From Micrococcus flavus (GTDB lineage Bacteria; Actinomycetota; Actinomycetes; Actinomycetales; Micrococcaceae): DNA of 64,000 bases. The stretch lies in contig NZ_JACHMC010000001.1 of the NCBI RefSeq assembly GCF_014204815.1, positions 1,612,001 through 1,676,000 of the forward strand, written 5' to 3'. Both the position numbers and the translations under genes were made by a program. The notes under the pieces are model-generated. The model saw only the letters and a program-made list of their open reading frames with translations. It searched no databases and was not told the DNA's origin. Positions 15,027 to 62,780 of this stretch are shown here, piece after piece (within the stretch, counting starts at the first letter, position 1; every line of letters starts with the position of its first letter).

Positions 15027-15038
15027 GTCAGCCGTGCC

Positions 15039-15473
15039 TCACGCCTGCTCGTCGTCGTCCGACGTCCGGTAGGGGTCCGCCTCGCCGGCGTACTGGGCGC
15101 CCTCGCGGGCACGGGCCAGCTCGGCGTCCCGCTCCTTGGCGGCGCGCAGCACGTCCTCGAGGTGCGCGGCCGCCTCGGGGACGGTGTCGGGCACGAACTC
15201 GAGGGTCGGGACCAGGCGGATGGTGAGCCCACGGCCCACCTCGCGACGCAGCACGCCGCGGTTCTCCTGGATCGCCTCGTGGGCGGCGGCCACGGTGGCC
15301 TCGTCCCCGAGGACCGTGTAGTACACGCTCGCATGCTGCAGGTCGTTGGTCACGCGGACCTCCGTCACGGTGACGGGCTCCACGCGGTCGTCCTTCACGG
15401 CGCGCCGCAGCGCCTCCGCGACGAGGACCTTGATGCGCTGGGCCAGGCGGCCTGCGCGGGCCGGATCGGCCAT
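15039..15473 (-). CDS. rbfA: Ribosome-binding factor A
   Basis: Cold-adaptation factor that matures the 5' end of 16S rRNA on the 30S subunit. 144 residues with the KH-like core (VTVTEVRVTNDLQHASVYYTV) at about 40-60. The ATG at 15473 is chosen because AAGGAG stands seven bases before it; an in-frame ATG 21 bases upstream lacks one. It ends in an acidic tail (TSDDDEQA). Confidence 0.94.
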   Translation of the reverse strand: MADPARAGRLAQRIKVLVAEALRRAVKDDRVEPVTVTEVRVTNDLQHASVYYTVLGDEATVAAAHEAIQENRGVLRREVGRGLTIRLVPTLEFVPDTVPEAAAHLEDVLRAAKERDAELARAREGAQYAGEADPYRTSDDDEQA

Positions 15474-15508
15474 GTCAGTCTCCTTCCGTGCCACGCTTCC
15501 GGGTCCGC

Positions 15509-26666: not shown

Positions 26667-28037
26667 TCAGAACAGGCGCACCGGCTCCACCACGTCCGCC
26701 ACGATCAGCAGCACTCCCATGCCCAGCATGAGCGCACCCACTGCGTACGTCAGCGGCAGCATCACGGCCAGGTCGAACGGCCCCGGATCCGGACGACCCC
26801 GCAGGCGCGCCCACCACCGGCGCAGCCCCTCGTAGAGGGCTCCGGCCACGTGGCCGCCGTCCAGCGGGAGCAGCGGTATGAGGTTGAACACCATGAGCGC
26901 CACGTTGACCCCCGCCACCAGCGAGAGCATCAGGGCCGCCTTGTCCGCGAGCGCCACGGAGTCCAGGGCGGCGGCCTCCCCGGCGATCCGGCCGACGCCC
27001 ACTACGGACATTGGCCCGTTCGGGTCCCGCTCAGCGGGGGTCACCACGGCGACGGCGGTGTCCCACAGCCGCTGCGGCAGGACCAGGATCACGTCCGCCA
27101 CGGCGGCGATCTGCCGGCCCACGGTGGGGACGGCCTCCCACGCCGGCAGTCGCACCGTCTCCTGCTGCGAGCCGAGGCCGATGAACCCGACCGGCTCCGT
27201 GCGGACCCCGCCGTCCGCGGCGCGCTCGGGGACGCCCAGGGCGTCCGTCACGGGGCGCTCCGTGAGGCGCGGGGTGAGGGTCGACTCGATGCGCTCCCCC
27301 TCCCGCTCCCACGCGATCGGGGTCGGCTGCCCCGCCCGCTCGCGGATCGCGGCGGAGAGCTGGTCCCACGTCCGGATCTCCTGCCCGGCGAAGGACACCA
27401 CGGTGTCCCCCGGACGCAGACCCGCCTCGTAGGCGGGGGCCACCGGGTCGTCCTCCCGGCAGGCGCCCGGATCCTCCCCGGCGGCCTCACGGGCCTGTCG
27501 GTCCGGGGCGGAGACCACGCACCGGTACACCTCGGCCGCCGTCGTGGAGGGCTGGGAGACGCCGAACGCGCTCACCAGGACGCCGGTGAGGGCGAGGGCG
27601 ATCAGCAGGTTCATGAACGGGCCGCCCAGCATGATCACCACCCGCTGCCACACCGGCAGCTGGATGAACTGCCGGCCCTCGTCGGCGGCCGTCAGCTCGG
27701 CGGCCGCCTGGGCCCGGGCGTCGTCGGCCATGCGTCCGGCCCGGGCGAGCACGCCGGTGGACCCGGTGCGCGCCACCGTCCCGCCCTTCGGGGGCGGGAG
27801 CATGCCCACCATGGCGACGTAGCCGCCCAGCGGGACCGCCTTGACCCCGTACTCGGTCTCCCCGCGCCGCCACGAGGCCACCGTGGGGCCGAACCCCACC
27901 ATGTACTGCGTCACGCGCACCCCGAAGGCCTTGGCGGGGACCAGGTGCCCCACCTCGTGGAGGGCGATGGACAGGGCGAGACCGAGGGCGACGACGAGCA
28001 CGCCGGCCACGGACCAGAGGGCGTCCACGGGGCTCAC
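26667..28037 (-). CDS. rseP: Site-2 protease, M50 family (RseP/RIP type)
   Basis: Intramembrane zinc protease that typically releases anti-sigma factors. 456 residues. The zinc motif HEVGH is at 27-31 in the first membrane helix. A PDZ domain lies at about 190-280 ([17 protein letters not shown]), and the second active-site motif [12 protein letters not shown] is near the C-terminus. Long insertions relative to E. coli RseP fit the actinobacterial form. The GTG at 28037 overlaps the dxr stop as GTGA. The dxr-rseP-(ispG) order is common in actinobacteria; here a lipoprotein gene is inserted before ispG. Confidence 0.92.
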
Positions 28038-29302
28038 CAGCGGGCACGCGCGGCGCGGCGGGCCCAGTCCTCGGCGGCCAGCACGGCCTCCACCGTGAGG
28101 TCGTCCGGGTCCTGGCCGGCCGCGGCGAGGACGTCCTCGGGCCGGTACTCCCCCAGGACCGCGCGCACGGTCCCGAGGATCCGGTCGAAGCGGATCGCGC
28201 CGTCGTGGAAGGCGTCCACGGCCTCCTCGTTGGCGGCGTTGAACACGGCCATGTGCGTGGCCGAGGCGCCGGCGGCCTCCTTGGCCAGCGCGACGGCGGG
28301 GAACGCCTCCTCGTCGAGGGGCTCGAAGGTCCAGGTGGCCGCCTGCGTCCAGTCGCAGCCGGGGGCGGCGTCGGGCACACGCTCGGGCCAGCCGAGGCCG
28401 AGCGCGATCGGCAGGCGCATGTCCGGCGGGGAGGCCTGCGCGAGGGTGGAGCCGTCCGTGAACTCCACCATGGAGTGGACGACGGACTGGGGGTGGACCA
28501 CCACGTCGATCCGCTCGAGCGGGACGTCGAAGAGCAGGTGCGCCTCCACCACCTCGAGGGCCTTGTTCACGAGGGACGCCGAGTTGGTGGTCACCACCCG
28601 GCCCATGTCCCATGTGGGGTGGGCGAGGGCCTCGGCGGGGGTGACCTCGCGCAGCCGCGCGGGCGAGCACCCGCGGAACGGTCCGCCGGAGGCGGTGAGC
28701 ACGAGGCGGCGGACCTCCTCCGCGGTGCCGCCGCGCAGGGCCTGGGCGAGCGCGGAGTGCTCCGAGTCCACGGGCACCAGCTGTCCGGGGGCCGCGGCGG
28801 CCTTCACGAGGGCGCCGCCCACGATGAGGGACTCCTTGTTGGCCAGGGCGAGCCGGTGGCCGGCGGCGAGCGCGGCGAGGGTGGGGCGCAGGCCGATCGA
28901 GCCGGTGATGCCGTTGAGCACGGTGTCCGCGCCGGACCACGCGGCGATCTCCGTGGCCGCCTCGGGGCCGGTGAACACGTGCGGGCGGGGGTCCGGCCGG
29001 TCCAGACGTGCGGCGGCGTCGGCCAGGGCGGTGCGCAGCTGCTCCGGCGTGGCCGCGGCCGAGCCGACCGCCTCGACGCCGAACCGCACCGCCTGCTCCG
29101 CGAGCAGGGCGGTGTTCGTGCCGCCGGCCAGGGCCACGGCGCGGAACCGCTCCGGGGACCGGGCGATGACGTCCAGGCCCTGGGTGCCGATCGAGCCGGT
29201 CGAGCCGATCAGGGCGACGCGGCGGGGCGTCCGATCCGGGTCGGCGTCGGGCGCGGCGGCGTGGCGGGGATGCGTGAAGTCGGTGAGGGATCCGTGGGTC
29301 AC
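28034..29302 (-). CDS. dxr: 1-deoxy-D-xylulose-5-phosphate reductoisomerase
   Basis: First committed enzyme of the MEP isoprenoid pathway. 422 residues. The NADPH motif [13 protein letters not shown] is near residue 33, the metal and substrate site includes VDSEHSAL and TASGGPFRG, and NEEAVDAF lies in the C-terminal part. The GTG at 29302 is chosen because a CATGAT box stands six bases upstream; the frame stays open further but the extra residues are low-complexity. Confidence 0.95.
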
Positions 29303-49022: not shown

Positions 49023-50164
49023 GCGCTCCGGCGCCGGGCCACCTGCTCCGCGAGGTCCAGCAGCGCGGCGGCCGAGGCGTCCCACGTGAACCGCGCGGCC
49101 TGGGCCACGGAGGCCCGCGAGGCCGCGGAGAAGACGTCCGGGTCCTCCAGCTCCCGGACGTGCCGTGCGAGGGCGGCGCCGCGGTCGCCCTGCAGGGGGA
49201 CGCCACGCCATGCGGCGGTGCCGGCGCCGGCCACCTCGCAGAACACGGGCAGCTCGGAGCACACGACCGGGGTGCCGTGCGCCTGGGCCTCCGCCACGGG
49301 GAGGCCGAACCCCTCAGCCCGGGACAGGGTCACGGACGCGGTGGCGCGGCGCAGCAGCCGGACGTACTCCGCCTCCTCGACTCCGTCGTGGAAGACCACC
49401 TCCGCCCCGTGCGCGCCGCGCCGGCCACGGGCGGCGGTCAGGTGCGCCTCGAGGGCGCGACGCCGCTCGTCGTCGACCCGCGAGAGCAGGTGCAGCGTGT
49501 AGCCGGGCAGGAGAGGGGCGGCATCGAGCACGGACTCGACGTCCTTGTAGGGCATGAACGAGCCCATGTAGAGGATCTCCCGGGCCGGAGGCTGGAGCGG
49601 GTCGCGCGGTGCGGCCACCGGCTGCGGGGCGTTCGGCACCACCCGGACGGGGCGCCGAGTCAGGCGGTGCCGGGCGATCAGGTCCGCTGTGGTCTGCGAG
49701 ACGGTGGCGACGGCGTCGGCGCGGTCCAGGAGCAGCCGCTGCGGCGTGTACGCCAGGTGGTACGCCCGCCACAGCCAGCGCAGCGGCTCGGGGAGGTCCC
49801 CGGGCGGGGTGGGGTGCTCGTGGTAGATGAGGTCGTGCAGCGTGAGGATGAGTCCGTGGCATCGGCCCCACGAGCCCATGGTCTGCAGGGGCGAGAACAC
49901 CACGTCCGGGTCGATCCGGCGGATCTGCCGCGCCACCCACGGCTCGCGGGCGGAGGTCGGCGAGGAGATCCGGTGCCAGGGGACGCCGGCCGGCAGCAGC
50001 CGCAGCTGGCGCTCGTCCGAGATCAGCATCTCCACGCGCACGCGGCCCGGGTCCGCGGTGCGGTGGACGGCCTCGACCAGGCTGGCGCCGTAGCGGGAGA
50101 TGCCGTCGTGGACGTCCACGCGGGTGTAGCGGGCGTCCATGAGCAGCAGCAGGGGGCGGGTCAC
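49019..50164 (-). CDS. Glycosyltransferase family 4
   Basis: 381 residues with the GT-B fold. The C-terminal donor-binding motif EGFGLPVAEAQAHGTPVVCSELPVFCEVAG and ILYMGSFMPYKDVESVLDAA are present. There is no membrane segment, so it acts at the inner face with a nucleotide-sugar donor; the acceptor is unknown. It overlaps the end of the M23 gene, with which it converges, by four bases. The GTG start follows a TAGCGT box by six bases. Confidence 0.85.
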   Translation of the reverse strand: MTRPLLLLMDARYTRVDVHDGISRYGASLVEAVHRTADPGRVRVEMLISDERQLRLLPAGVPWHRISSPTSAREPWVARQIRRIDPDVVFSPLQTMGSWGRCHGLILTLHDLIYHEHPTPPGDLPEPLRWLWRAYHLAYTPQRLLLDRADAVATVSQTTADLIARHRLTRRPVRVVPNAPQPVAAPRDPLQPPAREILYMGSFMPYKDVESVLDAAPLLPGYTLHLLSRVDDERRRALEAHLTAARGRRGAHGAEVVFHDGVEEAEYVRLLRRATASVTLSRAEGFGLPVAEAQAHGTPVVCSELPVFCEVAGAGTAAWRGVPLQGDRGAALARHVRELEDPDVFSAASRASVAQAARFTWDASAAALLDLAEQVARRRSA

Positions 50165-50170
50165 ACCCCC

Positions 50171-50176
50171 ACGCTA
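50171..50176 (-). promoter_or_regulatory. -10 box of the glycosyltransferase gene, leaderless start
   Basis: TAGCGT on the minus strand, six bases before the GTG at 50164. Confidence 0.4.
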
Positions 50177-50280
50177 ACGGCCGCGCACGCCGCCGACGGA
50201 GCGAATCCTCCGCAGCGGCGGCCCGGTCCGGCGCATGCCGGAGGGGGCGCGGTTCTGCGCTTCGACATGCGATTTCCTCC

Positions 50281-50351
50281 GAACGGCGACCGTTCACATT
50301 GCGTTTCGGTAACGATCCGGTACGGTAGGTCACGGTTCGGTCACGTGACCG
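50281..50351 (+). promoter_or_regulatory. Regulatory region of the LysM-NlpC/P60 gene
   Basis: Three signals lie in a row: the inverted repeat GAACGG-CGA-CCGTTC (50281-50295), a direct-repeat-like pair GTAACG (50309-50314) and GTACGG (50320-50325) spaced one helical turn apart, and the perfect 14-bp palindrome CGGTCACGTGACCG (50338-50351). The message would have a leader of about 140 bases before the TTG start. No riboswitch consensus was recognised. Confidence 0.45.
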
Positions 50352-50490
50352 AGACCACTCTTCCCTTCGCCGGACGTCTCCGTCGCCCGGTCAGCCCCGA
50401 TCACCTCTCGTCCCGGTGGGCCGGCATTCCGTCCCCGTGACCGCTCCCCGAGCGCCGCGTCCGCCCCCCCCCTCACCTCATGGAGCCACC

Positions 50491-51360
50491 TTGACCGAGC
50501 ACGCCCTCGCCCCCGCCCGTCGCGTCCGCACCTCCTCGGCCACCCTGGCCTTCGCCTTGGGCGCGAGCGCCCTCGCCACCGCCGGCGCCGCCACCGCCGT
50601 GGTCGCCCCCGCCGCCCAGGCCGCGGAGACCACCTACACGGTCCAGGCCGGTGACGGCTGGTGGATCATCAGCCAGCGCACGGGCGTGTCCACGTCCCAG
50701 CTGAGGCTCCTCAACGGCATGACGTCCAGCGACCTGCTCCACCCGGGCATGGTCCTGAAGACCTCGGGCGCCGTCTCCTCGACCACGACGTCGGGCACGT
50801 ACACGGTGCAGCCGGGTGACGGCTGGTGGATCATCAGCCAGCGCACCGGCACCTCGATGTCCACGCTGCAGCAGCGCAATGGCATGACGTCCTCCACCAT
50901 GCTGCACCCCGGCATGGTCCTGAAGACCACCGGCACCACCACGGCCCCCGCTCCGGCCCCGGACCCGGTCATCCGCCAGTCCTCCGGCAAGCAGGCCGCG
51001 ATCGACTTCGCGCTCGCCAAGGTCGCCGATCCGAACACCTACTACCTCTGGGGCGGCAACGGCCCGTACGGGTACGACTGCTCCGGGCTGACCAAGGCCG
51101 CCTTCGCGCAGGCGGGCATCACGATCCCGCGCACCTCGCACGACCAGTACATGGGCGCCCGCTCCTACCACTCGCTGTCCGACGCGCAGCCCGGTGACCT
51201 CGTGTTCTGGTCCAACCAGTCCACCGGCCGCATGTACCACGTGGCCATCTACCTCGGGAACGGCAAGATCGCCCACGCCCTGAACCCCACCGACGACCTC
51301 GTGGTCACGAGCATCGACATCATGACCTCCAACCGCATGGCGGTCGTCGGCCGCTACTGA
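50491..51360 (+). CDS. Secreted LysM-LysM-NlpC/P60 peptidoglycan hydrolase
   Basis: 289 residues from a TTG start with GGAG seven bases upstream. A signal peptide to about residue 45 (AAQA/AE) is followed by two LysM repeats, each containing GDGWWIISQRTG (about 48-92 and 101-145), and an NlpC/P60 domain (about 165-285). Catalytic Cys in GYDCSGLTKAAF and His in YHVAIYLGNG are present. It should cleave stem-peptide bonds in the cell wall during growth or division. The N-terminal ARRVR tail precedes the hydrophobic core. A strong terminator follows. Confidence 0.92.
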   Translation: MTEHALAPARRVRTSSATLAFALGASALATAGAATAVVAPAAQAAETTYTVQAGDGWWIISQRTGVSTSQLRLLNGMTSSDLLHPGMVLKTSGAVSSTTTSGTYTVQPGDGWWIISQRTGTSMSTLQQRNGMTSSTMLHPGMVLKTTGTTTAPAPAPDPVIRQSSGKQAAIDFALAKVADPNTYYLWGGNGPYGYDCSGLTKAAFAQAGITIPRTSHDQYMGARSYHSLSDAQPGDLVFWSNQSTGRMYHVAIYLGNGKIAHALNPTDDLVVTSIDIMTSNRMAVVGRY

Positions 51361-51378
51361 GCCGCCCACCGCGACGAT

Positions 51379-51416
51379 GTCGGCCCCCGCCCTGGACTGT
51401 CAGGGCGGGGGCCGAC
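51379..51416. terminator. 16-bp perfect hairpin terminator
   Basis: GTCGGCCCCCGCCCTG and its complement with a six-base loop. It ends the NlpC/P60 gene and, before the island inserted, would also have been the terminator of the tRNA gene reading toward it. Confidence 0.8.
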
Positions 51417-51427
51417 GTCGTGCCGGG

Positions 51428-51465
51428 GTAGGGCGTGCGGGGCTTGAACCCGCGACCCAGGGATT
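51428..51465. repeat. Left attachment repeat: copy of the tRNA 3' half
   Basis: 38 bases identical to 60529-60566. They cover the tRNA from the anticodon-loop 3' side through variable loop and T arm to the acceptor end, plus one extra base beyond the discriminator. Identity stops abruptly on both sides, the expected footprint of site-specific integration in a tRNA gene. Confidence 0.9.
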
Positions 51466-51623
51466 CAAGAGGCCTGGTGCGCGTCACCATCCGATGGTGT
51501 GCGTCAGCCGCACCAGCACGCCGATTCTGGGCCCTGCCCTGCCCTCTCCCCTGCCGTCATTTGCCGTCCCAACGCCTTGAAAGCGGTGGGTAAGCGGTGG
51601 GGATGTAGCGGGTCATGCAGTCG
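51466..51623. other. Island left end, candidate integrase/excisionase binding region
   Basis: 158 bases without a gene. It holds an inverted repeat CACCAT-CCG-ATGGTG (51485-51499) and a tandem pair AAGCGGTGGG (51581-51590 and 51592-51601), one helical turn apart. Such short repeats beside an attachment core resemble arm-type integrase sites, an inference only. Confidence 0.35.
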
Positions 51624-52298
51624 TCAGAGTTCCCACTCCCACTTGTTGCCGCTCATCGGCTCCTCGAGGAGCAGCACGCCCGACTCGGCGGGGACGTCCA
51701 GGAGGATGACCCCGCTGCTCTTCTCCCCCTCTCCGATGTCGGTCTTGAGCAGGTCCGCGATCGGGATGCAGCTGTAGGTGGCGAGCGTGGCGAGGTCACC
51801 GCTGAATGTCTCCCCGTCCTCGCCGATGAAGCGGAAGCGGCCACCGTTGAGGATCTCCCCGTCCACGTACTGATCGTCGGCGCCGGGGAACACCTCGAGC
51901 TCGGCCTCGAGAGCGACCAGCGAGCCGTTCTCGGGCGCGGTGGGGTCAGGCTCCGTGCAGGTGACCTCGGTAGAGATGTCGTTGATCGTGAACTCGATGA
52001 GGCTCTCACCGTCGGGGGTCGTCAGGCCTGCCATCTCTCCCGGCTGCTTCACGAGTGCACCTCGCGGGCTGATGGATCCCGTTGCGGCGCTAGCGGTGGT
52101 GGGCGACGCCGAGGCCGCGGAAGGCGCCGCCGGCTCTGCGGCTGGCGACATTGCCGCCCCCGGTGATGCCGTCACCGTCTGGGTAACCGTGACCGTGGGA
52201 GAAGATGTCCCACCGTCGGCGGCACAGCCGGTCAGGAGCGCGGCACCACTCCCGAAGAGGGTGAGTGCGAGGAGGGAGGGGGCTTCGAAGCGCGACAT
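51624..52298 (-). CDS. Island-encoded lipoprotein of unknown function
   Basis: 224 residues. The signal sequence has the lipobox LLTGC (Cys near residue 25), then a Ser/Thr/Ala/Pro spacer to about residue 75 and an acidic beta-rich domain with one Cys pair (TCTEPD and YSCIP). No family was recognised. A TAGGCT box lies six bases before the ATG. Lipoproteins on prophages sometimes block superinfection; nothing in this sequence proves that role. Confidence 0.75.
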   Translation of the reverse strand: MSRFEAPSLLALTLFGSGAALLTGCAADGGTSSPTVTVTQTVTASPGAAMSPAAEPAAPSAASASPTTASAATGSISPRGALVKQPGEMAGLTTPDGESLIEFTINDISTEVTCTEPDPTAPENGSLVALEAELEVFPGADDQYVDGEILNGGRFRFIGEDGETFSGDLATLATYSCIPIADLLKTDIGEGEKSSGVILLDVPAESGVLLLEEPMSGNKWEWEL

Positions 52299-52304
52299 GA
52301 GCCC

Positions 52305-52310
52305 AGCCTA
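52305..52310 (-). promoter_or_regulatory. -10 box of the island lipoprotein gene
   Basis: TAGGCT on the minus strand, six bases before the ATG at 52298. Confidence 0.45.
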
Positions 52311-52569
52311 GGTGGTGCACCAACTGGGTGAGCAGTGTGCCGGTCTACGCCGTGCCCACGCTCCCCGGCTGGCCTCGCGCTCTTCCGGTAGCGGTGGAAG
52401 TCCGGGCCGGCTCACCTCGGGACGACGTGCGTTATCGCGCGCAGAGACCTCCACGGGTGGAACATGGGCGCACCGTAGCGGTGAGGTGCGACACGTTACG
52501 CGGCGCCCGCTTCGCAGATGTTGCCCCGCGTCCCGGGGCCGCCCAGGGGCGTGTGCGACGATGGAACGC

Positions 52570-53025
52570 ATGCGTGAACAGATGTGGATCGTCGGCCACG
52601 GGTACGAGGGGCGCACGATCGCCCAGTACGTCGCCGACCTCTCCGCCTGGCGCGCGGACGTCGTCGTGGACGTCCGGCTCAACGCGATCTCCCGGAAGAA
52701 GGGCTTCTCCAAGACAGCTCTCCGGGCAGCGCTCACGGACGCCGGCATTCGCTACGAGCATCGCCCGGAGCTGGGCAACCCGAAGGACAACCGGGGCGGC
52801 TTCTGGGCCCCGGGCTCGGCCGACCACGCCCAGGCAGTGCATCGGTTCGGCGAGCTGCTCGGGGCGGACGCCGCACTGGAGGCTGTTCAGGAAGTGGCCG
52901 ACATGGCCAGATCCGAACGCGTCGTGTTGCTGTGCTTCGAGGCCTCTGAGCGGTGCTGCCATCGGCAGGTGGTGCTCGAGCGGGTGAAGGCGGTCGGCGC
53001 CGCGCGTGAGCTCGTGACCGCCTAG
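52570..53025 (+). CDS. DUF488-family protein
   Basis: 151 residues. The DUF488 signature is seen as IVGHGYEGRTIAQYVADL, DVVVDVRLNAISRKKGFSKTAL, YEHRPELGNP, and the C-terminal LLCFEASERCCHRQVV. The family is widespread near mobile elements, but its biochemical role is not established. The ATG at 52570 follows a GACGAT box by seven bases; an ATG at 52561 is also in frame. The stop codon TAG is part of the CTAG target into which the first insertion sequence jumped, so the protein is intact. Confidence 0.82.
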   Translation: MREQMWIVGHGYEGRTIAQYVADLSAWRADVVVDVRLNAISRKKGFSKTALRAALTDAGIRYEHRPELGNPKDNRGGFWAPGSADHAQAVHRFGELLGADAALEAVQEVADMARSERVVLLCFEASERCCHRQVVLERVKAVGAARELVTA

Positions 53026-54121
53026 GTGTGATGTCCAGGGACGTTGTTGCGTGAACAGCTGACAGGCGAAGGCCTCCTGTTGCGAGAGTGGAGTTGTCGA
53101 GAAACCGCTCACGCGAACAGAAGGCCTTCATGTCCCACGCTAACGCCGCCCTGACCCCTCGCGCCCGCCTACGCCTGGCCAAGCTCATCGTCGAGGAGCA
53201 CTGGCCGGTCGCCACCGCGGCCAAGATGTTCATGGTCTCCCCACCCACCGCACGCAAATGGGCCACACGCTTCCGGGCCGAGGGACCTGCAGGGATGGCA
53301 GACCGGTCCAGCCGGCCGTCCACGATGCCGACCAGAACACCGCCGGCGGTGGTGAAACAGATCGTGGCCGCCCGATGGCGCCGACGCCTCGGGCCGGCAC
53401 AGATCGCCGGAGAACTCAGGATGCCGGCCTCCACCGTCCATGCCGTGCTCGTGCGCTGCCGAATCAACCGCCTCGCCCGTCTGGACCGGGTCACCGGCGA
53501 GCCGATCCGCCGCTACGAGCACCCCCACCCCGGCTCGCTGATCCACGTCGACGTCACCAAGTTCGGGCGCATCCCCGACGGGGGCGGACACCGATTCGTC
53601 GGGCGCCGGCAGGGCCTGAAGCACCGCGCGGCGACCTCGGACCGCGAAGGAACCCGTGATGCCCGATACCAGCCCCGGCTCGGGGTGGGCTTTCTGCACA
53701 CCGTGATCGATGATCACTCCCGCTTCGCCTATGTGGAGATGCACTCCGATGAACGCAGCCAGACGGCCATCGCGGTGTTGCGCCGCGCGGTCGCCCACTT
53801 CGCGCGCCTGGGCGTGGAGGTGGAGCGGGTGCTGACGGACAACGGCTCGGCCTACCGCTCGCATGCCTGGCGTGATGCCTGCACCGAGCTCGGGATCAAG
53901 CCCAAGCGGACTCGGCCCTACCGGCCGCAGACGAACGGGAAGATTGAGCGGTTCCATCGCACGCTCGCTGACGGGTGGGCCTACGCCCGGTTCTACAGCT
54001 CAGAGACGCAGCGCAGGGCCGCGTTGCCTGGATGGCTGCACTTCTACAATCATCATCGCGTCCACTCCGCGATCGGCGCCGCGCCTGTCACCAGGCTCAA
54101 TAACCTCCCTGGACATCACAC
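53026..54121 (+). mobile_element. IS481-family insertion sequence, copy A
   Basis: 1096 bp. Terminal inverted repeats start GTGTGATGTCCAGGGACGTTG at the left and end with the complement (...CCCTGGACATCACAC) at the right. It is flanked by CTAG at 53022-53025 and 54122-54125, the IS481-type target duplication. The right CTAG is shared with copy B. Confidence 0.88.
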
Positions 54122-54125
54122 CTAG
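53130..54125 (+). CDS. IS481-family transposase, copy A
   Basis: 331 residues. An N-terminal helix-turn-helix (HWPVATAAKMFMVSPPTARKWATRF) is followed by a DDE integrase core: Asp in LIHVDVTKFG, the HTVIDDHSR block, Asp in LTDNGSAY, and Glu in TNGKIERFHRTL. The frame is intact. The stop TAG is supplied by the duplicated CTAG target beyond the right inverted repeat, so the element itself has no stop codon. Confidence 0.92.
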   Translation: MSHANAALTPRARLRLAKLIVEEHWPVATAAKMFMVSPPTARKWATRFRAEGPAGMADRSSRPSTMPTRTPPAVVKQIVAARWRRRLGPAQIAGELRMPASTVHAVLVRCRINRLARLDRVTGEPIRRYEHPHPGSLIHVDVTKFGRIPDGGGHRFVGRRQGLKHRAATSDREGTRDARYQPRLGVGFLHTVIDDHSRFAYVEMHSDERSQTAIAVLRRAVAHFARLGVEVERVLTDNGSAYRSHAWRDACTELGIKPKRTRPYRPQTNGKIERFHRTLADGWAYARFYSSETQRRAALPGWLHFYNHHRVHSAIGAAPVTRLNNLPGHHT

Positions 54126-55216
54126 GTGTACCCGGTCAGGACGTTGGTGGCACGAGGGAGCTTGAACAAAGGAGAACCTCCGGGTGGGATGTGGCTTGTC
54201 TAAGGCCCACATCACAAACCCAGAGGTTCTCATGTCCCACGGTAGCGCCCGCCTAACCGTTCACGGTCGTCGACTCATCGTCCAACGCCACCAAGCCGGA
54301 TGAACTCAAGCCCACATCGCCGCCGCGATGGGGGTCTCACGAAAATGCGTGAAGACCTGGATCGACCGGTACGCGTGCGAGGGCGATGCAGGCCTGGCCA
54401 CGCGTTCCTCCCGCCCCCACACCAGCCCCACGAGAACTTCTACAGCCACGGAGCAGGCGGTGCTCACCGCTCGCGCCGAGCACCGGTACGGGCAGGACCG
54501 TCTTGCCCCGCTCACCGGGGTTCCAGCACGCACGATCGGCAGGATCCTGCATCGTCATCACGTGCCCCGCCTGGCCGCATGCGACCCGATCACCGGGGAG
54601 GTGATCCGTTCTTCGAAGACGACCACGCGCCGGTACGAACGAGACCGGCCCGGGGAGCTGGTCCACGTGGACGTGAAGAAGCTGGGCAAGATCCCCGAGG
54701 GCGGGGGCTGGAGAGCACGAGGACGCGCGGCGACCGAGGCTGAGAAAGGCCGGCGCCCCAAGATCGGATACGACTACGTGCACGCGATGGTCGATGACCA
54801 TTCCCGCCTGGCCTACGCCGAGGTCCTGGCCGACGAGACCGGGCAGACGTGCGCGGGATTCCTGCAGCGGGCCGCGGCGTACTTCGCCTCTCGGGGGATC
54901 ACGAGGATCGAGCGTGTCATCACGGACAACGCGTTCGCGTATCGCCATAGTGCAGCGTTCCGGGCCGCGGTGGCCGGGCTCAGGGCCAAGCAGAAGTTCA
55001 TCCGCCCGCACTGCCCGTGGCAGAACGGCAAGATCGAGCGGTTCAACCGGACGCTGGCGATCGAGTGGGCCTACCGGCAGGTGTTCACCTCCAGTGCTCG
55101 CCGACAGGACGCGCTTGCCCCGTGGTTGGAGTACTACAACACTGAGCGGGGTCACGCCGCGCTCGGAGGACACCCGCCCATGAACCGGGTGCCACCAACC
55201 TCATGACCGGGTACAC
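54126..55216 (+). mobile_element. IS481-family insertion sequence, copy B
   Basis: 1091 bp, ends GTGTACCCGGTCAGGACG...GACCGGGTACAC. CTAG lies on both sides (54122-54125 and 55217-55220). The sequence differs clearly from copy A, so this is a second IS type that entered the same target, in the same orientation. Confidence 0.88.
54232..55206 (+). pseudogene. IS481-family transposase, copy B, interrupted by an in-frame TGA
   Basis: Frame from ATG 54232 to the TGA at 55204-55206, 324 sense codons plus one internal stop. The internal TGA at 54301-54303 is codon 24; reading continues in frame into VSRKCVKTWIDRY and the full DDE core (LVHVDVKKLG, AMVDDHSR, ITDNAFAY, NGKIERFNRTL). Aligned with copy A, the TGA falls exactly on a Trp (HW-PVATAAKMFMVS against AG-stop-TQAHIAAAMGVS), so a TGG to TGA change is the simple explanation. 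Internal initiation at the ATG 54328 would lack the first part of the DNA-binding domain. Confidence 0.8.
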
Positions 55217-55219
55217 CTA

Positions 55220-56160
55220 GGGCGTGTCTGAGAATGAATCCAGGGGCCGGATGACACCCTGGAGGACGTGTCTCGTTTCCAGATGCTCTCCGATGCCCAG
55301 TGGGAGCTGATCGCCCCGATGCTCCCAGCCAGGACGGGCCGACAGGGGCGGCCGTTCGCCGATGCCCGCACGATGGTCGAGGCGATCATCTACCGGTACA
55401 GGTGCTTCGATCCCCTGGCGGGATCTGCCCGAGGTCTACGGGCCCTGGCAGACCGTGTGGACCTGGCATCGGCGCTTGGCCGAAAAAGGCACATGGGACA
55501 CGGTGCTGGCCACGCTGACCGCCGCAGCTGACGCCGAAGGCCTGATCGATTGGTCGGTCTCGGTGGACTCCACGATCGCCCGCGCCCACCAGCACGCGAC
55601 GAACATCACCCGCCACACAGGGGGATGGATCGAACTACAAGAATCCGCGTGAGGAGCCGGCCGATCACGGCATCGGGCGCTCCCGTGGCGGGCTGAGCAC
55701 GAAGATCCATCAGCTCGTCGATGGGACCGGGCGGCCGCTGGTCAGCCTGATCACCCCCGGCCAGGCAGGGGACTCCCCGATGCTGCTTCCTCTTCTGGAG
55801 CAGCTGCGCGTGGCCCGGCCGGCAGGCCGGCCCCGGACCCGCCCCGAGGCGGTGCTGGGCGACAAGGCCTACTCCTCCCGGGCGATCCGCACCCACCTAC
55901 GTGCCCGCGACATCAAGGCGGTCATCCCCGAACCGGCCGACCAGCAGGGCCACCGCAGACGCCGCGGCACCCGCGGCGGCCGACCCGTCGGCCTCGACGC
56001 GGACGCCTACCAGGGGCGCAATGTAATCGAGCGCCAGTACGCGCACCTGAAGCAGTGGCGGGGTCTGGCGACCCGGTACGACAAGTACGCGATCGTCTAC
56101 CGGGCTGCCGTGATCCTGAACGCGGTGATCGCGTGGTCCAAACTATTGTCAGACACGCCC
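55220..56160 (+). mobile_element. IS5-family (IS427-group-like) insertion sequence
   Basis: 941 bp with inverted ends GGGCGTGTCTGAGAAT and ATTGTCAGACACGCCC (one mismatch). A TA dinucleotide lies on each side (55218-55219, 56161-56162), which is the expected target duplication. The target is again the centre of CTAG, at the right edge of IS copy B. Confidence 0.85.
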
Positions 56161-56163
56161 TAG
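55268..56163 (+). pseudogene. IS5-family transposase, two frame changes
   Basis: The first frame runs MSRFQMLSDAQWELIAPMLPARTG to IIYRYRC. From about 55405 the family sequence continues in the next frame (IPWRDLPEVYGPWQTVWTWHRRLAEKG, then VDSTIARAHQHATNITRHTGG). From about 55630 it continues in the third (NYKNPREEPADHGIGRSRGGLSTKIH, LGDKAYSSRAIR, RNVIERQYAHLKQWRGLATRYDKYA). The second change is where IS427-type elements normally use programmed frameshifting between orfA and orfB. The first looks like a one-base insertion (TGCTTCG) that disrupts the gene. Confidence 0.75.
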
Positions 56164-56482
56164 TACTAGTTCCAGTACCGAGACTGATCCGGGTACCGGC
56201 CCCCCATCGGCAGCGTGTGCATCCTGTGACACCCCCGCCCCACACAGGCGCCCACCGGCGCCGCGAACGGCCCGCAGGCGGCCACGCAACCCCTCCATCC
56301 CCAGCCGGCCCCGACGGGCGGCGGGCCAGGGGGCGGGGCGGCAGCTCCCAGCTCCACACCCCCACGCGCCATAACTCACGCCACGCGTGATGCCATCCCT
56401 ACGCCACACCCGCAGTCATATTCTTGATTTGCCACAGCATATCTTGGACAGATAAACAGAGATGCACATACCATTCATGCAT
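56164..56482. other. Gene-free spacer between the IS array and the low-GC patch
   Basis: About 320 bases. It begins with TACTAG next to the IS end and a small GTAC...GTAC inverted repeat, continues GC-rich to about 56410, then turns abruptly AT-richer. No gene or clear promoter is seen. Confidence 0.4.
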
Positions 56483-56956
56483 TCACCTGAATAATGGGCA
56501 CGCCTCACTTTTAAAAGTGCTTTCGTCAGAATTCTTCGGCACCGTAAAACACGCATTTGCCTTGTATGGTCGATCGTCAATCACGTCATTGTCATATTCG
56601 GCATGGATTCGAATACTTATACTATCTTCACCTACATCAACTACTTCCCAGGAGTAACCTGGATCAAATTCGAATGAGGCCCAATCGCCAATACTGAGCT
56701 TCTTTACCGAATGGTCGCCACTATCATCGTGAAGCTGGGCCACCAACCTGGGCATCAATTGACCCTCCGAATATGCTGCTACACGCTTGTCGTAATCAGT
56801 TTTGTGAAAATATTTGCAATATACAAATCCTAAGACCACGGCGCAGATTACTGCAACGCTATAAGCGACTGGCCTGTAAATAGGCTTTCTCTGCCCACCT
56901 AGACTAGTTTTCACGACCGGGTCAGAATGATTCTCCAGAGCCTGGAACCTTGGCAC
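56483..56956 (-). CDS. Low-GC hypothetical membrane-anchored protein
   Basis: 157 residues. A short basic N-terminus is followed by one transmembrane helix at about 30-48 (VAYSVAVICAVVLGFVY) and an outer domain of about 105 residues with an acidic, beta-rich pattern and two Cys near the end (NACFTV, EACPLF). No family was recognised. Base composition is clearly lower in GC than anywhere else in the window. The start lies 35 bases inside the end of the upstream M15-like fragment. Confidence 0.65.
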   Translation of the reverse strand: MPRFQALENHSDPVVKTSLGGQRKPIYRPVAYSVAVICAVVLGFVYCKYFHKTDYDKRVAAYSEGQLMPRLVAQLHDDSGDHSVKKLSIGDWASFEFDPGYSWEVVDVGEDSISIRIHAEYDNDVIDDRPYKANACFTVPKNSDESTFKSEACPLFR

Positions 56957-57359
56957 TATCTATCCTATCATTATTGACAATCTTCTGCGCTAATTTCTTC
57001 GACGTAACCCCCAAGGCTTTTCTCGTCATAAAGAACAGCGACTCGTCAGGAACCGCCAGGTCACCACCCCAGCTGATCTGCCCTTCCATTTCCCCTAGGA
57101 TCTCATAAATCGATGCCACTTGAATGGGATCAAAGTTTCCCTTTACGCCATAAGGAAAGTAGTTCGGTGCGACATCAACGGCCGTTGCAGAAAGGCGGTT
57201 GGACCGCTCCCTAGAGAGGACCCTTCGATCTACCATATGCGCAACAGACGCACGTTCGTTAATATTCATCACCTCATAATGGAATCTACGTACAACACGC
57301 AGTAGAATTGCAGCCGTTTCGTCTCTTCGGAGAACTAGTTTGAGGCCGGTTCCATCTAG
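56922..57359 (-). pseudogene. Degenerate M15-peptidase-like (endolysin-type) fragment, low GC
   Basis: About 145 residues read in frame from a point where GC-rich DNA stops. The pattern ILLRVVRRFHYEV ... SNRLSATAVD ... FPYGVKGNFDPIQVASIYEIL ... ISWGGD ... PDESLFFM matches the M15 D-Ala-D-Ala peptidase layout SNHxxGxAxD ... WGGD ... DEMHF, recalled from phage lysins. The His of the first motif is Arg and the His of the last motif is Leu, so the zinc site is gone. The 5' end seems to be missing at the junction with the HIRAN partner gene; an ATG at 57269 could start a shorter product of 115 residues. Confidence 0.5.
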
Positions 57360-57556
57360 GTCGAATCGGGCCCCGTGTCCTCGCGCAAGCGGATCCCGGC
57401 GACGCAGACTGTGTCCCCGTACTTCTGGGACGGCTGCGGGGTCGCCTTCACCGTGATCAGCACGCGGGCCGCCTTGGGCCGACGGTCGGTCTCCTTGGGG
57501 TAGAGGGCCCGGCCGTCTCCGACCATGAAGAAGAGGGCGCCGCCGAACTCGCTCAC
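57356..57556 (-). CDS. Small partner of the HIRAN protein, possibly truncated
   Basis: 66 residues from the GTG at 57556, which overlaps the HIRAN gene stop as GTGA. The segment GDGRALYPKETDRRPKAARVLITVKATPQPSQKYGDTVCVAGIRL looks like the conserved start of a larger globular protein. It ends (DTGPDST) exactly where base composition drops from GC-rich to low GC. The likely reading is that the 3' part was lost in a recombination event. Function unknown. Confidence 0.55.
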   Translation of the reverse strand: MSEFGGALFFMVGDGRALYPKETDRRPKAARVLITVKATPQPSQKYGDTVCVAGIRLREDTGPDST

Positions 57557-59010
57557 GCGCCCTCTCCGTCGCCCGGGTCCTGGTTCTCTTCGCCGACGCC
57601 GCCCCACTCCCGGTCCTGCTGGTCACGAGGTGTGAGCGGACCCGCAACGGATCCGCCGCGGTCAGCCTCGAGCGCGGAAGCTTTCCGAAGCTGGTCCGGG
57701 CCAGCAACGAACACGATGACGAGGGCCGCGATGGTCAACAGCGGTCCGATCCCTGGGATGCCGGCCAGCAGCAGGCCCAGAAGTGTGATGCTGACCAGTG
57801 CGATCCAGGCGGTACGCCGAGGGTGCTTGCCCGCGTTCGAGCGTTCACGATCGTCAACGAACACCTGCTTACCCTTGACCGTGTAGAAAACCGGTCGCCG
57901 CGGACCGGAGCCTTCGCCGAGGCGTACGACGGTGTCGCTAAGGCGGACGGGCAGCGGGTTGACCGGAGGCTGGGGTGCGGTGCGCTTCTTCGGCGCAGCC
58001 GGCACCGCCGACGTGGCTCCGGGCCGAGAGGCAGGGGCACCCTGAACGCGGTCGGATCCGCCGTCCGCACGGAGACCGGCCACGTCCGCATAGCCCGCTC
58101 GTGCGATCGCGGAACTCCCAGAGCGCGGTCCCGTCTGGCGAGTGGTGTTCTCCTTGCCCTTGGGCTTCCCCTGGTAGGTGTTCGGGACGTCGTAGGTGTG
58201 GGCCTCGGGCACAAGCCGCGGGAAAAGCGGCATGTCCCGCAACCATTGATCTGTGAGCTCAGTGGACTTGGCGCCCTTGATCGTCAGCTCTGCAGCGAGG
58301 CCGGATCCGGTGATGGTGCCCCACACGCCCACGACGCGCCCCATACCGTCGGCGTGGTCGATCACGGGCAGGTAGTGGGCTGACGTTGCCGTGGTGAGTT
58401 CGCCGGCTTTCTGCCCGTCGAGGCGAACTTCAACGGTTCGACGCACGTTGCCATTGCGGAGCGTCGTGTCCGCTGAGTGCAGGGTCAGCAGCACTGGCCC
58501 CTTGCCCGACTTGGGCACGAAGTTGAACAGGTGCTCGAAGTGCTGGTCTTCCTTCGTCACCTGGTAGGTCTGTCGCCCGTACGGCAGGACGCTGGTCGTG
58601 GCCGGGTAGCCATCGTTCAGCGGCGCCATCCAGTCGGGCTCGGGCAACCCGACCCAGGCGCTGATCTCCAGCTCGCCCCGATAGTCCACGTACGCGTAGA
58701 GACGAGCGCTCGAGCGCAGCACGGCTCCCGACGCGACGATCCGCTTGATCGGCAAGTGGTAATCCGCAGCTAGCTCACGGGAGAGGTACCCGATGACCTG
58801 TCCCTCCGCTCGGACCGAAACTGCACGTCGGTCATAGGGGTTGTCCGGCTCGGGCACGATCTCCACAGGCACGGTTGCCTCTGCCGGAGCACCGTCTGCC
58901 GGAAGGCGTGGCAGCGCCCGCAGGAGGGCCTCCTTGTATGCGAACTCACCCACGAGTTCGACGCCGTTATACCCGCCATGGGGCAACTCGTAGTGCGTCG
59001 TCTCCGGCAT
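57553..59010 (-). CDS. HIRAN-domain membrane protein
   Basis: 485 residues. The N-terminal HIRAN-like domain (about 15-110) shows VELVGEF, VEIVPEPDNPYDRRAVSVRAEGQVIGYLSREL. HIRAN domains bind DNA ends or modified DNA in helicases such as HLTF, though stand-alone bacterial versions are uncharacterised. A middle beta-rich region (TLHSADTTLRNGNVRRTVEVRLDGQKAGELT, about 180-250) resembles a second HIRAN-like unit. A Pro/Ala linker follows, then two membrane helices at about 405-440 (LVSITLLGLLLAGIPGIGPLLTIAALVIVFVAG). The ATG has GGGAGA upstream. It is the largest intact gene of the island. Confidence 0.72.
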   Translation of the reverse strand: MPETTHYELPHGGYNGVELVGEFAYKEALLRALPRLPADGAPAEATVPVEIVPEPDNPYDRRAVSVRAEGQVIGYLSRELAADYHLPIKRIVASGAVLRSSARLYAYVDYRGELEISAWVGLPEPDWMAPLNDGYPATTSVLPYGRQTYQVTKEDQHFEHLFNFVPKSGKGPVLLTLHSADTTLRNGNVRRTVEVRLDGQKAGELTTATSAHYLPVIDHADGMGRVVGVWGTITGSGLAAELTIKGAKSTELTDQWLRDMPLFPRLVPEAHTYDVPNTYQGKPKGKENTTRQTGPRSGSSAIARAGYADVAGLRADGGSDRVQGAPASRPGATSAVPAAPKKRTAPQPPVNPLPVRLSDTVVRLGEGSGPRRPVFYTVKGKQVFVDDRERSNAGKHPRRTAWIALVSITLLGLLLAGIPGIGPLLTIAALVIVFVAGPDQLRKASALEADRGGSVAGPLTPRDQQDREWGGVGEENQDPGDGEGA

Positions 59011-59193
59011 GGCGGTCTCCCTCGTCGTACTGGCTCTCCTCGCCCGCTACGTCCAACTCCCTCCCGGCCGCCAGGTTTAGGCCCGGGTGCGCGGTGAGGT
59101 TGGCACGGCAAGAACCGGGCATGGTCGCGAGCATAACGCCCACTAAGAACGAACGATGAGGACGACGCGGGGCGGGCCCTTGTCCCGCTGCCG
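59011..59193. other. Spacer between HIRAN gene and phage head pseudogene
   Basis: 183 bases with no gene, no strong hairpin and no clear promoter. Confidence 0.4.
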
Positions 59194-59985
59194 CTACTCG
59201 CCTTTGAGCTGCTTCACCGTGGTGACGCGCCACGAGTCCCGCCAGGCCGGCGTCTCGTGCTTGGTGGTCATGTCCTCCCAGGCCGCGGCGCCGTCCTGGT
59301 AGAGCTTGAACCGGTCGGGCCCCATGATCCTCCGCTGGGATTCCACGGTGAGGCCGTCGAATCATGCGCGGGCGTCAGGGATCGTGCTGGGCGGCTCCAC
59401 GCTGCCGGGGAATCCGAGCTCGACGGCGGTCTTGGTGAGCGGCAGGCGGGTGCAGCGGCCGTTCTGGTGATCGTTCGGCCCGTACTCGTCGACGGGGTAC
59501 TCGGTCCCGTGCTTGACGAGGCACGACACGCAGGTGCGCTTGTCGAACGTGGTGTACCACACCCAGCCCTTGAGGATCCCCCGGTTGCTCTGTTCGGCGG
59601 CGTGCTGGGCCACCCGGTGGGCGTCGAGCTGTTCTGTCCTGGCGATGCGTTCACCGCGGACGGCGCCGCCCATGAACGCGCCCTCGAGCTGAGTCATGAT
59701 GCGTCGGGCCGTCTGCCGCGGGGTCGCCCCGACAACGATCCCGTTGCGGAGCTGGGCGCGCATGACGGGGACCATGGTGTCCGGCAGGGGGAGGGTCAGG
59801 GCGTGGATCGTCTGGGTGGTGCGGGCGACGATCGCGTCCGCGGCGGTGAGGTCGAGCGCCACCCAGGACGGCAGGGTCGGGAGGTGCTGGAGCTGGGCCA
59901 GGGCGGCGGAGCGGGAGGCGTCCTCGGCCATGGTGACGATCTCGAGGATGGTGGCCGCGGTGGACTCGTTGGCGGTCTGGGCCAT
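59194..59985 (-). pseudogene. Phage minor head (SPP1 gp7-like head morphogenesis) protein, in-frame TGA
   Basis: A frame of 264 codons from ATG 59985 to TAG 59194 with one internal TGA at 59362-59364. Before it, the head morphogenesis signature is seen: RIARTEQLDAHRVAQHAAE, a Cys pair in DKRTCVSCLVKHGTEYP, and NDHQNGRCTRLPL. After it, the frame goes on as FDGLTVESQRRIMGPDRFKLYQDGAAAWEDM, the usual C-terminal tail of this family. A Trp is expected at the TGA. It is the only recognisable phage structural gene in the island. Confidence 0.78.
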
Positions 59986-60488
59986 GTGATCCCCAGGCAA
60001 CCACCAAGGCGTTAGACCGCCGCCGGAATAGGGTGCGGCATCCCAGCCTCCGCTATGCGTCGTTGGTGATGCTGTGGGGGGCGCTGCTCTGTGGACCCAG
60101 CGTCCGCCCCCACTCATTCCTGCTCCAGGTTGGCGCTCTTGGCGGAAACGGCTTCCCGGTCTTCGCGATCCTTGATGTGCGAACCGAACCCGGTTAAGCC
60201 TTCGTGGGTTCCAGCGGCACGTCGGTGTTCTCAATGGGCCCAGCGAACACCTCACCGATGGTCAATTGTCGACGGTGTCAGCAACCTGAATTCTTAACGG
60301 CCAGCATGGGAGATGACGGGTCTGGTGGCCCTCCCGGTAGCCGCGACCATGAAATTCCCCTTGCGGTCCAAACAAGCATCCGACCGCCGAGGTCCAGATG
60401 CACTCGCAGGTCCAGAGCGAGTCATTGAACAGCCCGCACGAATGCGGCGGGTATCCGATGAATGGCCCTGATCAAGCCTGACAGGAGC
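59986..60488. other. Gene-free stretch at the island right end
   Basis: About 500 bases upstream of the phage head gene. Long open frames here are low-complexity and match nothing recognised. GC content is lower around 60190-60430. Confidence 0.4.
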
Positions 60489-60522
60489 GGCCCCTGACCC
60501 TGCACAGGGCAGGTCAGGGGCC
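60489..60522. terminator. Hairpin terminator of the tRNA gene, inside the island
   Basis: 11-bp perfect arms GGCCCCTGACC/GGTCAGGGGCC, extended by a smaller inner stem. Seven bases beyond the tRNA 3' end. The island thus supplies a terminator in place of the one left behind at 51379-51416. Confidence 0.7.
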
Positions 60523-60528
60523 GTTCTT

Positions 60529-60566
60529 GTAGGGCGTGCGGGGCTTGAACCCGCGACCCAGGGATT
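60529..60566. repeat. Right attachment repeat, within the intact tRNA gene
   Basis: 38 bases identical to 51428-51465. The crossover edge lies in the anticodon loop of the tRNA, a known class of integration position within tRNA genes. Confidence 0.9.
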
Positions 60567-60603
60567 ATGAGTCCCCTGCTCTGACCGACTGAGCTAACGC
60601 CCC
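60530..60603 (-). tRNA. tRNA with anticodon CAU (elongator Met or Ile2)
   Basis: 74 nt folding as a full cloverleaf: acceptor GGGGCGT/ACGCCCT (one G-U pair), D stem GCTC/GAGC, anticodon stem GGGGA/TCCCT with loop CTCATAA, variable loop GGGTC, T stem GCGGG/CCCGC with TTCAAGC, discriminator A. CCA is not encoded. A CAU anticodon fits elongator Met or, with lysidine, Ile2; the sequence alone does not decide. The gene is the island attachment site and remains complete. Confidence 0.92.
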
Positions 60604-60663
60604 CCGTCCCGCGCGGCGCGCACGCCGCCCGCGGGACCCGCCCATCCTAGCCAGCGGTGCGCG

Positions 60664-61884
60664 TCAGAGCTCGGCGCGGATGCGTGCGGCGGTCTCCCCG
60701 CGGTAGAGGCGCTCGAAGAGGTCCACGGTGCGGTGCGCCGAGTGCTGCGCCGCCTTGGCGTGGGAGGCCTCGCCCATGGCGGCGCGTTCGGTGTCGGGCA
60801 GGTCCAGGACACGGGCGATCCGGTCGGCGAGGGCCACGGGGTCCCCCGGCGGGAAGAGCCAGCCGTTGACGCCCTCGTCCACGAGGTGGGGCAGGGCCAG
60901 GGCGTCGGCGAGGACCACCGGCGTGGACGCGCTCATCGCCTCGAGGGACACCAGGGACTGCAGCTCCGCGATGCCGGGCTGGCAGAACACGTCCGCGCGC
61001 AGGTACGCCCGATGCAGCTCCTCCTCGGACACGTGGCCGCGGCGGTGCACACGGTCCACCACGCCCTCCTCGGCGATGACGCGGTCGATCGCGTCGCGCT
61101 GCTCGCCGTCGCCCACGATCTCCGCATGCACGTCCAGGTCCGGCCGCGTGCGCGCCAGGTGGGCCACGGCGCGGACGAGCACGTCCACGTGCTTCTCCAC
61201 CGCCAGCCGGCCCACGAACAGGACGGTGGGGTTCGCAGGGCGCTCGACCACCTCGCCGGGCGCGGGCTCGTAGGCCGCGGCGTCGATCCCGTTCGAGATC
61301 GGCAGCACCCGGTCCAGCCCGGCCCGCTCCGCCATGGCGCGGGCGGCCAGCGCGGTGGGGGTGGTCACGGCGGCGCCCCTGCCCATGAGCCGGCCCATCT
61401 GCCACCACGAGTAGCGGGAGTAGCGGTCCAGGATCCACTGGGGGAACGGCAGGAACGGCTCGAGGTTCTCGGGCATGAAGTGGTTGGTGGACACCGTCCG
61501 GATGCGGCGCTGCTCGGCCACCCGGATGGCGGCCGCGCCGATCATGTAGTGGCACTGGGCATGCACCACGTCCGGCTCCACCTGGGCCATGATCCGGCGC
61601 ATGGAGCGGCGGGCACGCGGGGGGAACACCAGCCGGTAGTACTCGTGGGTCGGCGCGTGCCAGGACTGCAGCCGGTGGACGGTGGCCTCGGGCCGGTGCT
61701 CCACGGTGTCCGGACCGTCCTCGGTGCGGGCGGCCACCACGTGCACCTCGTGCCCACGGGCGTGCAGCGCGGTGGCCAGGCGGAAGCAGAAGGTGGCGGC
61801 CCCGTTGACGTCCGGCGGATAGGTGTCCGCGGCGATCATCACGGTCAGCGGACGCGGTGCGCCGGGGAGCTCTCGTGGGCTCAC
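60664..61884 (-). CDS. Glycosyltransferase family 4 (mannosyltransferase-like)
   Basis: 406 residues, GT-B fold. The N-terminal ADTYPPDVNGAATFCFRLATAL and C-terminal LFVGRLAVEKHVDVLVRAV ... IVGDGEQRD ... GIAELQSLVSLEAMSASTPVVLADALALPHLV are typical of GT4 enzymes such as actinobacterial MgtA/PimB-like mannosyltransferases. It is probably a GDP-mannose-dependent glycolipid enzyme on the inner membrane face, by similarity only. The start overlaps the EamA gene by four bases. Confidence 0.88.
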   Translation of the reverse strand: MSPRELPGAPRPLTVMIAADTYPPDVNGAATFCFRLATALHARGHEVHVVAARTEDGPDTVEHRPEATVHRLQSWHAPTHEYYRLVFPPRARRSMRRIMAQVEPDVVHAQCHYMIGAAAIRVAEQRRIRTVSTNHFMPENLEPFLPFPQWILDRYSRYSWWQMGRLMGRGAAVTTPTALAARAMAERAGLDRVLPISNGIDAAAYEPAPGEVVERPANPTVLFVGRLAVEKHVDVLVRAVAHLARTRPDLDVHAEIVGDGEQRDAIDRVIAEEGVVDRVHRRGHVSEEELHRAYLRADVFCQPGIAELQSLVSLEAMSASTPVVLADALALPHLVDEGVNGWLFPPGDPVALADRIARVLDLPDTERAAMGEASHAKAAQHSAHRTVDLFERLYRGETAARIRAEL

Positions 61885-62780
61885 GTGGGGGTGTCTCCTG
61901 AGGTCGGGGCGGGGGCGCGGCCGTCCTGCCTCCGGGCCAGCACGTCGGGATGGCTCCGGGCCAGCCGCACGATCCCCACGGTAGCAACCAGCGCCGCGGC
62001 CACGAGCCCCGGCCCCACCCAGCCCGGCACGTCCGGGCGCAGCTCACCCAGCACCAGGATGCCGATCAGGACGCCCACCATGGGGTCGATCACGGTGAGG
62101 CCCGCGACCACCAGGTCCGGGGGGCCGTGCCGGTACGCGGTCTGCACGAACCACACGCCCAGCAGGCCCGCCGCGGCGACGACGGCGATCACGTCCCCGT
62201 CCGGGACGCGCCCGTCGAGCAGCCGCACGGCGGTGAGCCGGACGGCCACGGCCACGAACCCGTACAGCACGCCCGCCGCCAGGATCGGCACGAGCGCGCT
62301 GACGTGCCGTCGCAGCCACAGTGCCGCCGGGACGGCCAGGAGGACGGCCGCCCAGGCGATCGCCACCGTGACGCGCTCCTGCGCCGGCGTGGGCACCGGG
62401 TTCTGCCGGGTGGCGGCCAGGGTGATGAGCACGAAGGCGGCGGACCCCACGGTGCACGCGGCGATGGCAGCCCACGTGCCGCGGTCGATGCGCAGGCCGG
62501 CGGTGCGGGCGTGCAGCACCGTGGTCACGGCCACGGCGATCGCCCCGAGGGGCTGGATCACGCTCAGCGGGGCCAGGGCCAGGGCGGTGACGTTGAGGAC
62601 GATGCCCGCCACCATGAGCGCCCCGCCCATGAGCCAGACGGGGGAGCGCAGCAGGGCCAGCATCCCGGCCCCCGCGGGGGCCCGTCCCTCGAGGGCGCGC
62701 ACGCCACGGGCCTGGCGCTCGCTGCCGAGCGCCAGGAACACCGCGCCCGCGAGGGCGCACAGGACCGGGATCAGCGGCAC
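61881..62780 (-). CDS. EamA/DMT-type membrane transporter
   Basis: 299 residues with ten predicted transmembrane helices in two halves, as in drug/metabolite transporters (first half ending near PLGAIAVAVTTVLHAR, second half with TVIDPMVGVLIGILVLGE). The substrate is unknown. The overlap with the downstream glycosyltransferase suggests they work in the same envelope process. The start is GTG at 62780; the ribosome site is weak. Confidence 0.82.
   Translation of the reverse strand: MPLIPVLCALAGAVFLALGSERQARGVRALEGRAPAGAGMLALLRSPVWLMGGALMVAGIVLNVTALALAPLSVIQPLGAIAVAVTTVLHARTAGLRIDRGTWAAIAACTVGSAAFVLITLAATRQNPVPTPAQERVTVAIAWAAVLLAVPAALWLRRHVSALVPILAAGVLYGFVAVAVRLTAVRLLDGRVPDGDVIAVVAAAGLLGVWFVQTAYRHGPPDLVVAGLTVIDPMVGVLIGILVLGELRPDVPGWVGPGLVAAALVATVGIVRLARSHPDVLARRQDGRAPAPTSGDTPT

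Follow-up and report, generated by a model that had tools for sequence, protein, structure and literature searches.

How a second copy of the 3' half of a tRNA gene came to lie 9.1 kb from the gene itself, and what kind of DNA separates the two, is the question raised by this Micrococcus flavus locus. In the 64,000-nt stretch analyzed (the window), ARAGORN finds one tRNA, a minus-strand CAT tRNA (60529-60603, anticodon 60567-60569), which it labels Met, a label that does not separate Met from lysidine-Ile2. An exact 38-nt direct repeat (51428-51465 and 60529-60566, spacing 9101) matches the tRNA from the base immediately 3' of its anticodon through its 3' terminus. A sequence-only reading had proposed that this repeat brackets a genomic island of about 9.1 kb inserted in the anticodon loop, and both copies were re-found exactly. 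The boundary features are as follows (G and L numbers are our labels for genomes and loci).

51372-51420: original tRNA terminator (hairpin), now adjoining the displaced copy; the same hairpin lies 7 nt from the tRNA in G003
51428-51465, minus strand: distal att copy, the displaced tRNA 3' half; repeat, single copy in the G003 and G009 empty sites
51466-60528: inserted DNA, 9063 bp, or 9101 bp with one 38-bp copy
60489-60522, minus strand: element-borne terminator, now behind the tRNA; core-terminator-arm site layout shared with G086 and G190
60529-60566, minus strand: tRNA-proximal att copy, the tRNA 3' half from the base after the anticodon; exact repeat
60529-60603, minus strand: tRNA(CAU) gene, the target, its 3' part element-supplied (ARAGORN); orthologous locus beside the same glycosyltransferase gene in other genera

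The search for the tRNA region covered 39 genomes, those of the host and relatives, among them ten other species of the genus with one genome each. In G003, window positions 49921-51465 align to L002 1-1538 and positions 60529-62399 to L002 1501-3371; the flanks overlap by exactly 38 nt, adjoin with exactly one copy of the repeat, and show the order terminator, 7 nt, tRNA. G009 has the same single-copy empty site, and one congener carrying that site has DNA 94-95% identical to the host's. Seven further congeners (G002, G004-G008, and G010) have these two flanks no more than about 1.2 kb apart, the G001 contig ends beside the tRNA, and the site was occupied in 0 of the 10 other species searched. 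The empty site shows that the tRNA 3' half was displaced by 9.1 kb, and a chance repeat is excluded because the G003 and G009 flanks adjoin with exactly one 38-bp copy. The island interpretation is thereby supported: the predicted joining of flanks in island-free congeners was seen in G003 and G009, the boundary is defined to the base as claimed, the old and new terminators stand beside the two copies, and neither a pair of repeat copies lacking the intervening genes nor island content conserved in all strains was seen among the congeners. In G008, 1.1 kb of DNA (L043, about 14341-15479) is inserted immediately upstream of the tRNA, matching the window junction 60651-60660.

Against a GC content of about 73% outside, the block has 66-70%, and a patch at 56-57.5 kb drops to near 50-54%. 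Pfam, PHROGs, and NCBIfam matches identified MuF, HIRAN, DUF488, and transposases belonging to three IS elements, two of the IS481 family and one of the IS5 family. The foreign contents listed in the earlier reading (phage head gene, IS elements, HIRAN and DUF488 genes, and low-GC patch) are thus present, with the refinements that the head gene is broken and that the IS elements number three.

51624-52298, minus strand: lipoprotein gene (phrog_25640), positioned like a prophage lipoprotein gene
52412-52465, minus strand: N-terminal remnant of an ImmA/IrrE-type (M78) peptidase gene; 12 of 15 residues equal the start of the M78 gene in the G006 tRNA-His element (Pfam)
52561-53025, plus strand: DUF488 gene, its stop codon inside the CTAG target of the IS stack
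53026-54121, plus strand: IS481-family element A; 100% identical copy at chromosome 27309-28417
54126-55216, plus strand: IS481-family element B
55221-56159, plus strand: IS5-family element C
56483-56956, minus strand: low-GC patch ORF, 157 aa, one probable membrane helix, without family match
56922-57356, minus strand: low-GC fragment similar to phage M15-type endolysins (phrog_1512, E 5e-12; Peptidase_M15_4 weak)
57356-57526, minus strand: short ORF, apparently truncated where the low-GC patch ends
57553-59010, minus strand: HIRAN-domain protein with a C-terminal hydrophobic segment
59200-59991, minus strand: MuF-type phage minor head gene, N terminus missing, in-frame stop at 59362-59364

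Evidence of a tailed-phage origin comes from the MuF gene, which is of phage-particle origin and whose product is 48% identical over 273 aa to a Glutamicibacter phage capsid protein, with about the first 83 residues absent. A frameshifted C terminus was considered and rejected, as the alignment gives an in-frame stop. Glutamicibacter phage BIM BV-113 and Arthrobacter phage TripleJ likewise encode MuF minor capsid proteins (48-51% identical), but they are full phages with complete structural modules, whereas the island holds this truncated gene as its only representative of a terminase, portal, capsid, and tail module. Pfam, PHROGs, and NCBIfam searches recognized no replication, primase, or regulator gene in the island. 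Near the distal end, the M78 start fragment and the lipoprotein gene resemble parts of a prophage lysogeny cassette, as in the G006 tRNA-His element.

When the whole island was searched across the genus, IS copies proved widespread, and among the matches listed there was one non-IS patch, of 78 bp in G006; the lipoprotein gene, and the HIRAN gene outside that patch, were not found in the ten congeners. Two short patches (window 57550-57627 and 52421-52498, 87% and 76%) are common to the G006 tRNA-His element (L080), which suggests module exchange between elements. The HIRAN protein had no match in phages and viral contigs, and it was left out of the element classification because seven of the eight loci fetched for its relatives have no tRNA within about 8-9 kb. 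DUF488 matches the PADLOC candidate models PDC-M19A and M45, which are weak evidence, and a defence role is not claimed for it. In the M15-endolysin-like fragment of the low-GC patch (window 56400-57356), which adjoins a small putative membrane protein, the expected histidine appears changed.

The three IS elements share single copies of CTAG (53022, 54122, 55217, and 56160), the first of which contains the DUF488 stop codon. This tetramer is rare in the window, with 20 occurrences seen against 155 expected from base composition, and IS ends bearing it seem to be favored targets for the next IS. In G002, five of the seven full-length IS5-family copies listed abut an IS481-family copy with an overlap of a few bases, with comparable pairs in G006, G008, and G010. 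Recurrent IS stacking is among the newer details of this element.

The site has been used repeatedly in the family. Four other elements were found in tRNA(CAU) genes, at least three of them (G086, G138, and G056) at the locus of the window, as the same glycosyltransferase gene adjoins the tRNA; G190 shares the tRNA(CAU) target, its locus not being confirmed by that neighbor. Two copies of the tRNA 3' half lie 40.7 kb apart in G138, 8.4 kb in G056, 7.6 kb in G190, and 0.7 kb in G153 (L112), the last perhaps an almost fully deleted element, and G178 has two copies on different contigs. In G086, a 40-nt repeat with copies 16.3 kb apart surrounds a defective prophage that has MuF and tape-measure genes and a fragment of an integrase. 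This prophage shares with the window element the tRNA locus, the start of the repeat in the anticodon loop, the terminator, the arm pairs, and MuF at 45-47%; unlike the window element, it keeps tape-measure, replication-initiator, and M78 genes and the integrase fragment, and it has no HIRAN match. The 40.7-kb G138 element (L107-L109), with TGCACACCATT arm repeats at both ends, is probably a full prophage. Outside cellular genomes, neither the att junction nor the tRNA 3' half was found in viral contigs, the island end had no match in plasmids, and the 38-mer showed partial similarity to phage and plasmid sequences (best 84-87% full-length), partly annotated phage tRNA genes.

Elements that target tRNA genes by means of a tyrosine integrase carry the integrase gene inside, near one end. 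The window element has the tRNA 3' repeat at both ends, the single-copy empty site, and arm-type repeats (binding putative) of that class, but not the gene, and it is filed as a remnant only. The integrase would be expected between about 60440 and 59991, because the tRNA end holds an integrase in G138, G056, and G190 and a fragment of one in G086; this stretch is about 450 bp without recognizable coding. None of the three PF00589 matches in the host genome falls inside the island, and a search of the island for an integrase remnant gave nothing above noise. Two of the three host genes look like XerC and XerD, the third lies at another locus with a tRNA-Ser in its flank, and none of them gave a tblastn match to the G190 or G086 integrase at E 1e-3. 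With no integrase inside and no close relative of it in the chromosome, the element is probably unable to excise.

The class of the lost integrase may nevertheless be legible from its candidate arm-type sites.

51584-51601, minus strand: distal candidate pair of integrase arm-type sites, CCCACCGCTTACCCACCG (period 11); single occurrence in the genome, T-loop distance 151 nt
60440-60465, minus strand: proximal candidate arm-type pair CCATTCATCGGATACCCGCCGCATTC, degenerate; by-eye count of about 23 in 29 bases shared with the G086 proximal pair

In a common orientation of all elements, the ACCCAACG pairs of G190 stand at +99/+110 and -145/-134 relative to the core; the CCCACCG pairs of the window stand at -145/-134, and its degenerate pair at about +96/+107. 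The distal 18-mer is identical at 17 of 18 positions between the window and G086, and the distance from distal pair to T-loop is 151 nt in the window, G086, and G190. It is 150-152 nt in Pseudarthrobacter siccitolerans, Arthrobacter sp. Bz4, A. ipis, P. oxydans, and Arthrobacter sp. efr-133-R2A-120, with outliers in A. cheniae (172) and Afipia (124); the background of tRNA-half-like matches near random positions in those loci was 34 in 34,000. The motif occurs once in the host genome (G000) and is present in 3 of 200 family genomes. Judged by position and period, we infer that the pairs are integrase arm sites, and these sites would place the lost integrase in the G190/G086 clade. Copies of the conserved 18-nt pair were seen near displaced 3' halves of several tRNA species (L115-L118, L121, L122, L120, G086, and G190), in Arthrobacter, Pseudarthrobacter, and once Afipia; differing tRNAs are hit in the loci of these three genera, with TAATCC after the anticodon common to most. 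A rather speculative extension is a wide family of actinobacterial integrases that attack several tRNA anticodon loops but have one arm signature, recognizable by CCCACC(G/A)CTTACCCACCG 150-152 nt from the T-loop; the window element would be a non-autonomous member, which any such integrase could still mobilize if another phage brought it in.

Taken together, we consider the block to be what is left, after decay, of a temperate tailed phage or a phage-derived element very close to one, inserted by means of a tyrosine integrase (probability roughly 85%). Recombination between an attP with its own copy of the tRNA 3' half and attB in the anticodon loop of the conserved tRNA(CAU) gene would have rebuilt the tRNA with element DNA and pushed its own 3' half 9.1 kb away. 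Subsequent deletions would have stripped the element of its integrase gene and of almost every structural and replication gene; unrelated genes would have entered, and three IS elements would have stacked at one CTAG. An intact element with the same gene content was not found, and the island may be a mosaic assembled stepwise, since one clear phage structural gene is left and the HIRAN gene, DUF488 gene, and low-GC patch are not phage specific.

Alternatively, the block could be a small integrative element or phage satellite whose integrase was supplied in trans. The elements of G190 and G056 (L110 and L111; 7.6-8.4 kb, with an integrase, an HTH regulator, and an AAA ATPase or prim-pol/D5 protein), which are possible phage satellites, give this idea its substance, as they share the tRNA(CAU) target, and the window arms reproduce the G190 spacing exactly. 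Unlike the window element, however, both carry an integrase and replication-type genes, and no phage structural gene was recognized among their larger ORFs. The integrase, regulator, and primase or replication gene that mark a PICI-like satellite without capsid genes were not recognized in the island, which contains instead a broken MuF structural gene, and the host genome has no integrase of the G190/G086 clade; we therefore regard a satellite origin as improbable. Still further from the evidence is a repeat produced by duplication of a tRNA fragment or by homologous recombination, with foreign genes later dropped in through IS activity. tRNA fragments, the subject of PMC9897764, are common in prokaryotes, three IS elements do lie inside, and the G153 copies are 0.7 kb apart. 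Such a history would account poorly for the precise single-copy empty site, the distal arm-type pairs at a fixed distance, which already disfavor it, the element-type terminator behind the tRNA, and the integrase-bearing elements of relatives at the same site, and we consider it very unlikely.

A tRNA-integrated prophage remnant, here decayed, belongs to a kind that is already well known. Islander (PMC4383910) describes tDNA islands of this kind, whose ends, like those of the window element, are marked by a regenerated target gene and a displaced fragment; their integration is catalyzed by a tyrosine integrase whose gene they normally carry and which is absent here. Nor is such an island unusual for a Micrococcus host, as Micrococcus luteus genomes have 4-15 predicted islands and 159-315 IS each (PMC7890812). 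The locus offers a base-exact history of insertion and deletion at a tRNA site used by several elements of the family, and the conserved arm-site ruler is the most useful of the newer details. By themselves, arm-type sites can indicate which class of integrase an element used before its integrase gene was lost, and reading them could help find fossil prophages missed by integrase-based searches. Beyond the distal end of the island, a 142-nt imperfect direct repeat in an NlpC/P60 gene (window 50631-50937) corresponds to repeated LysM domains.
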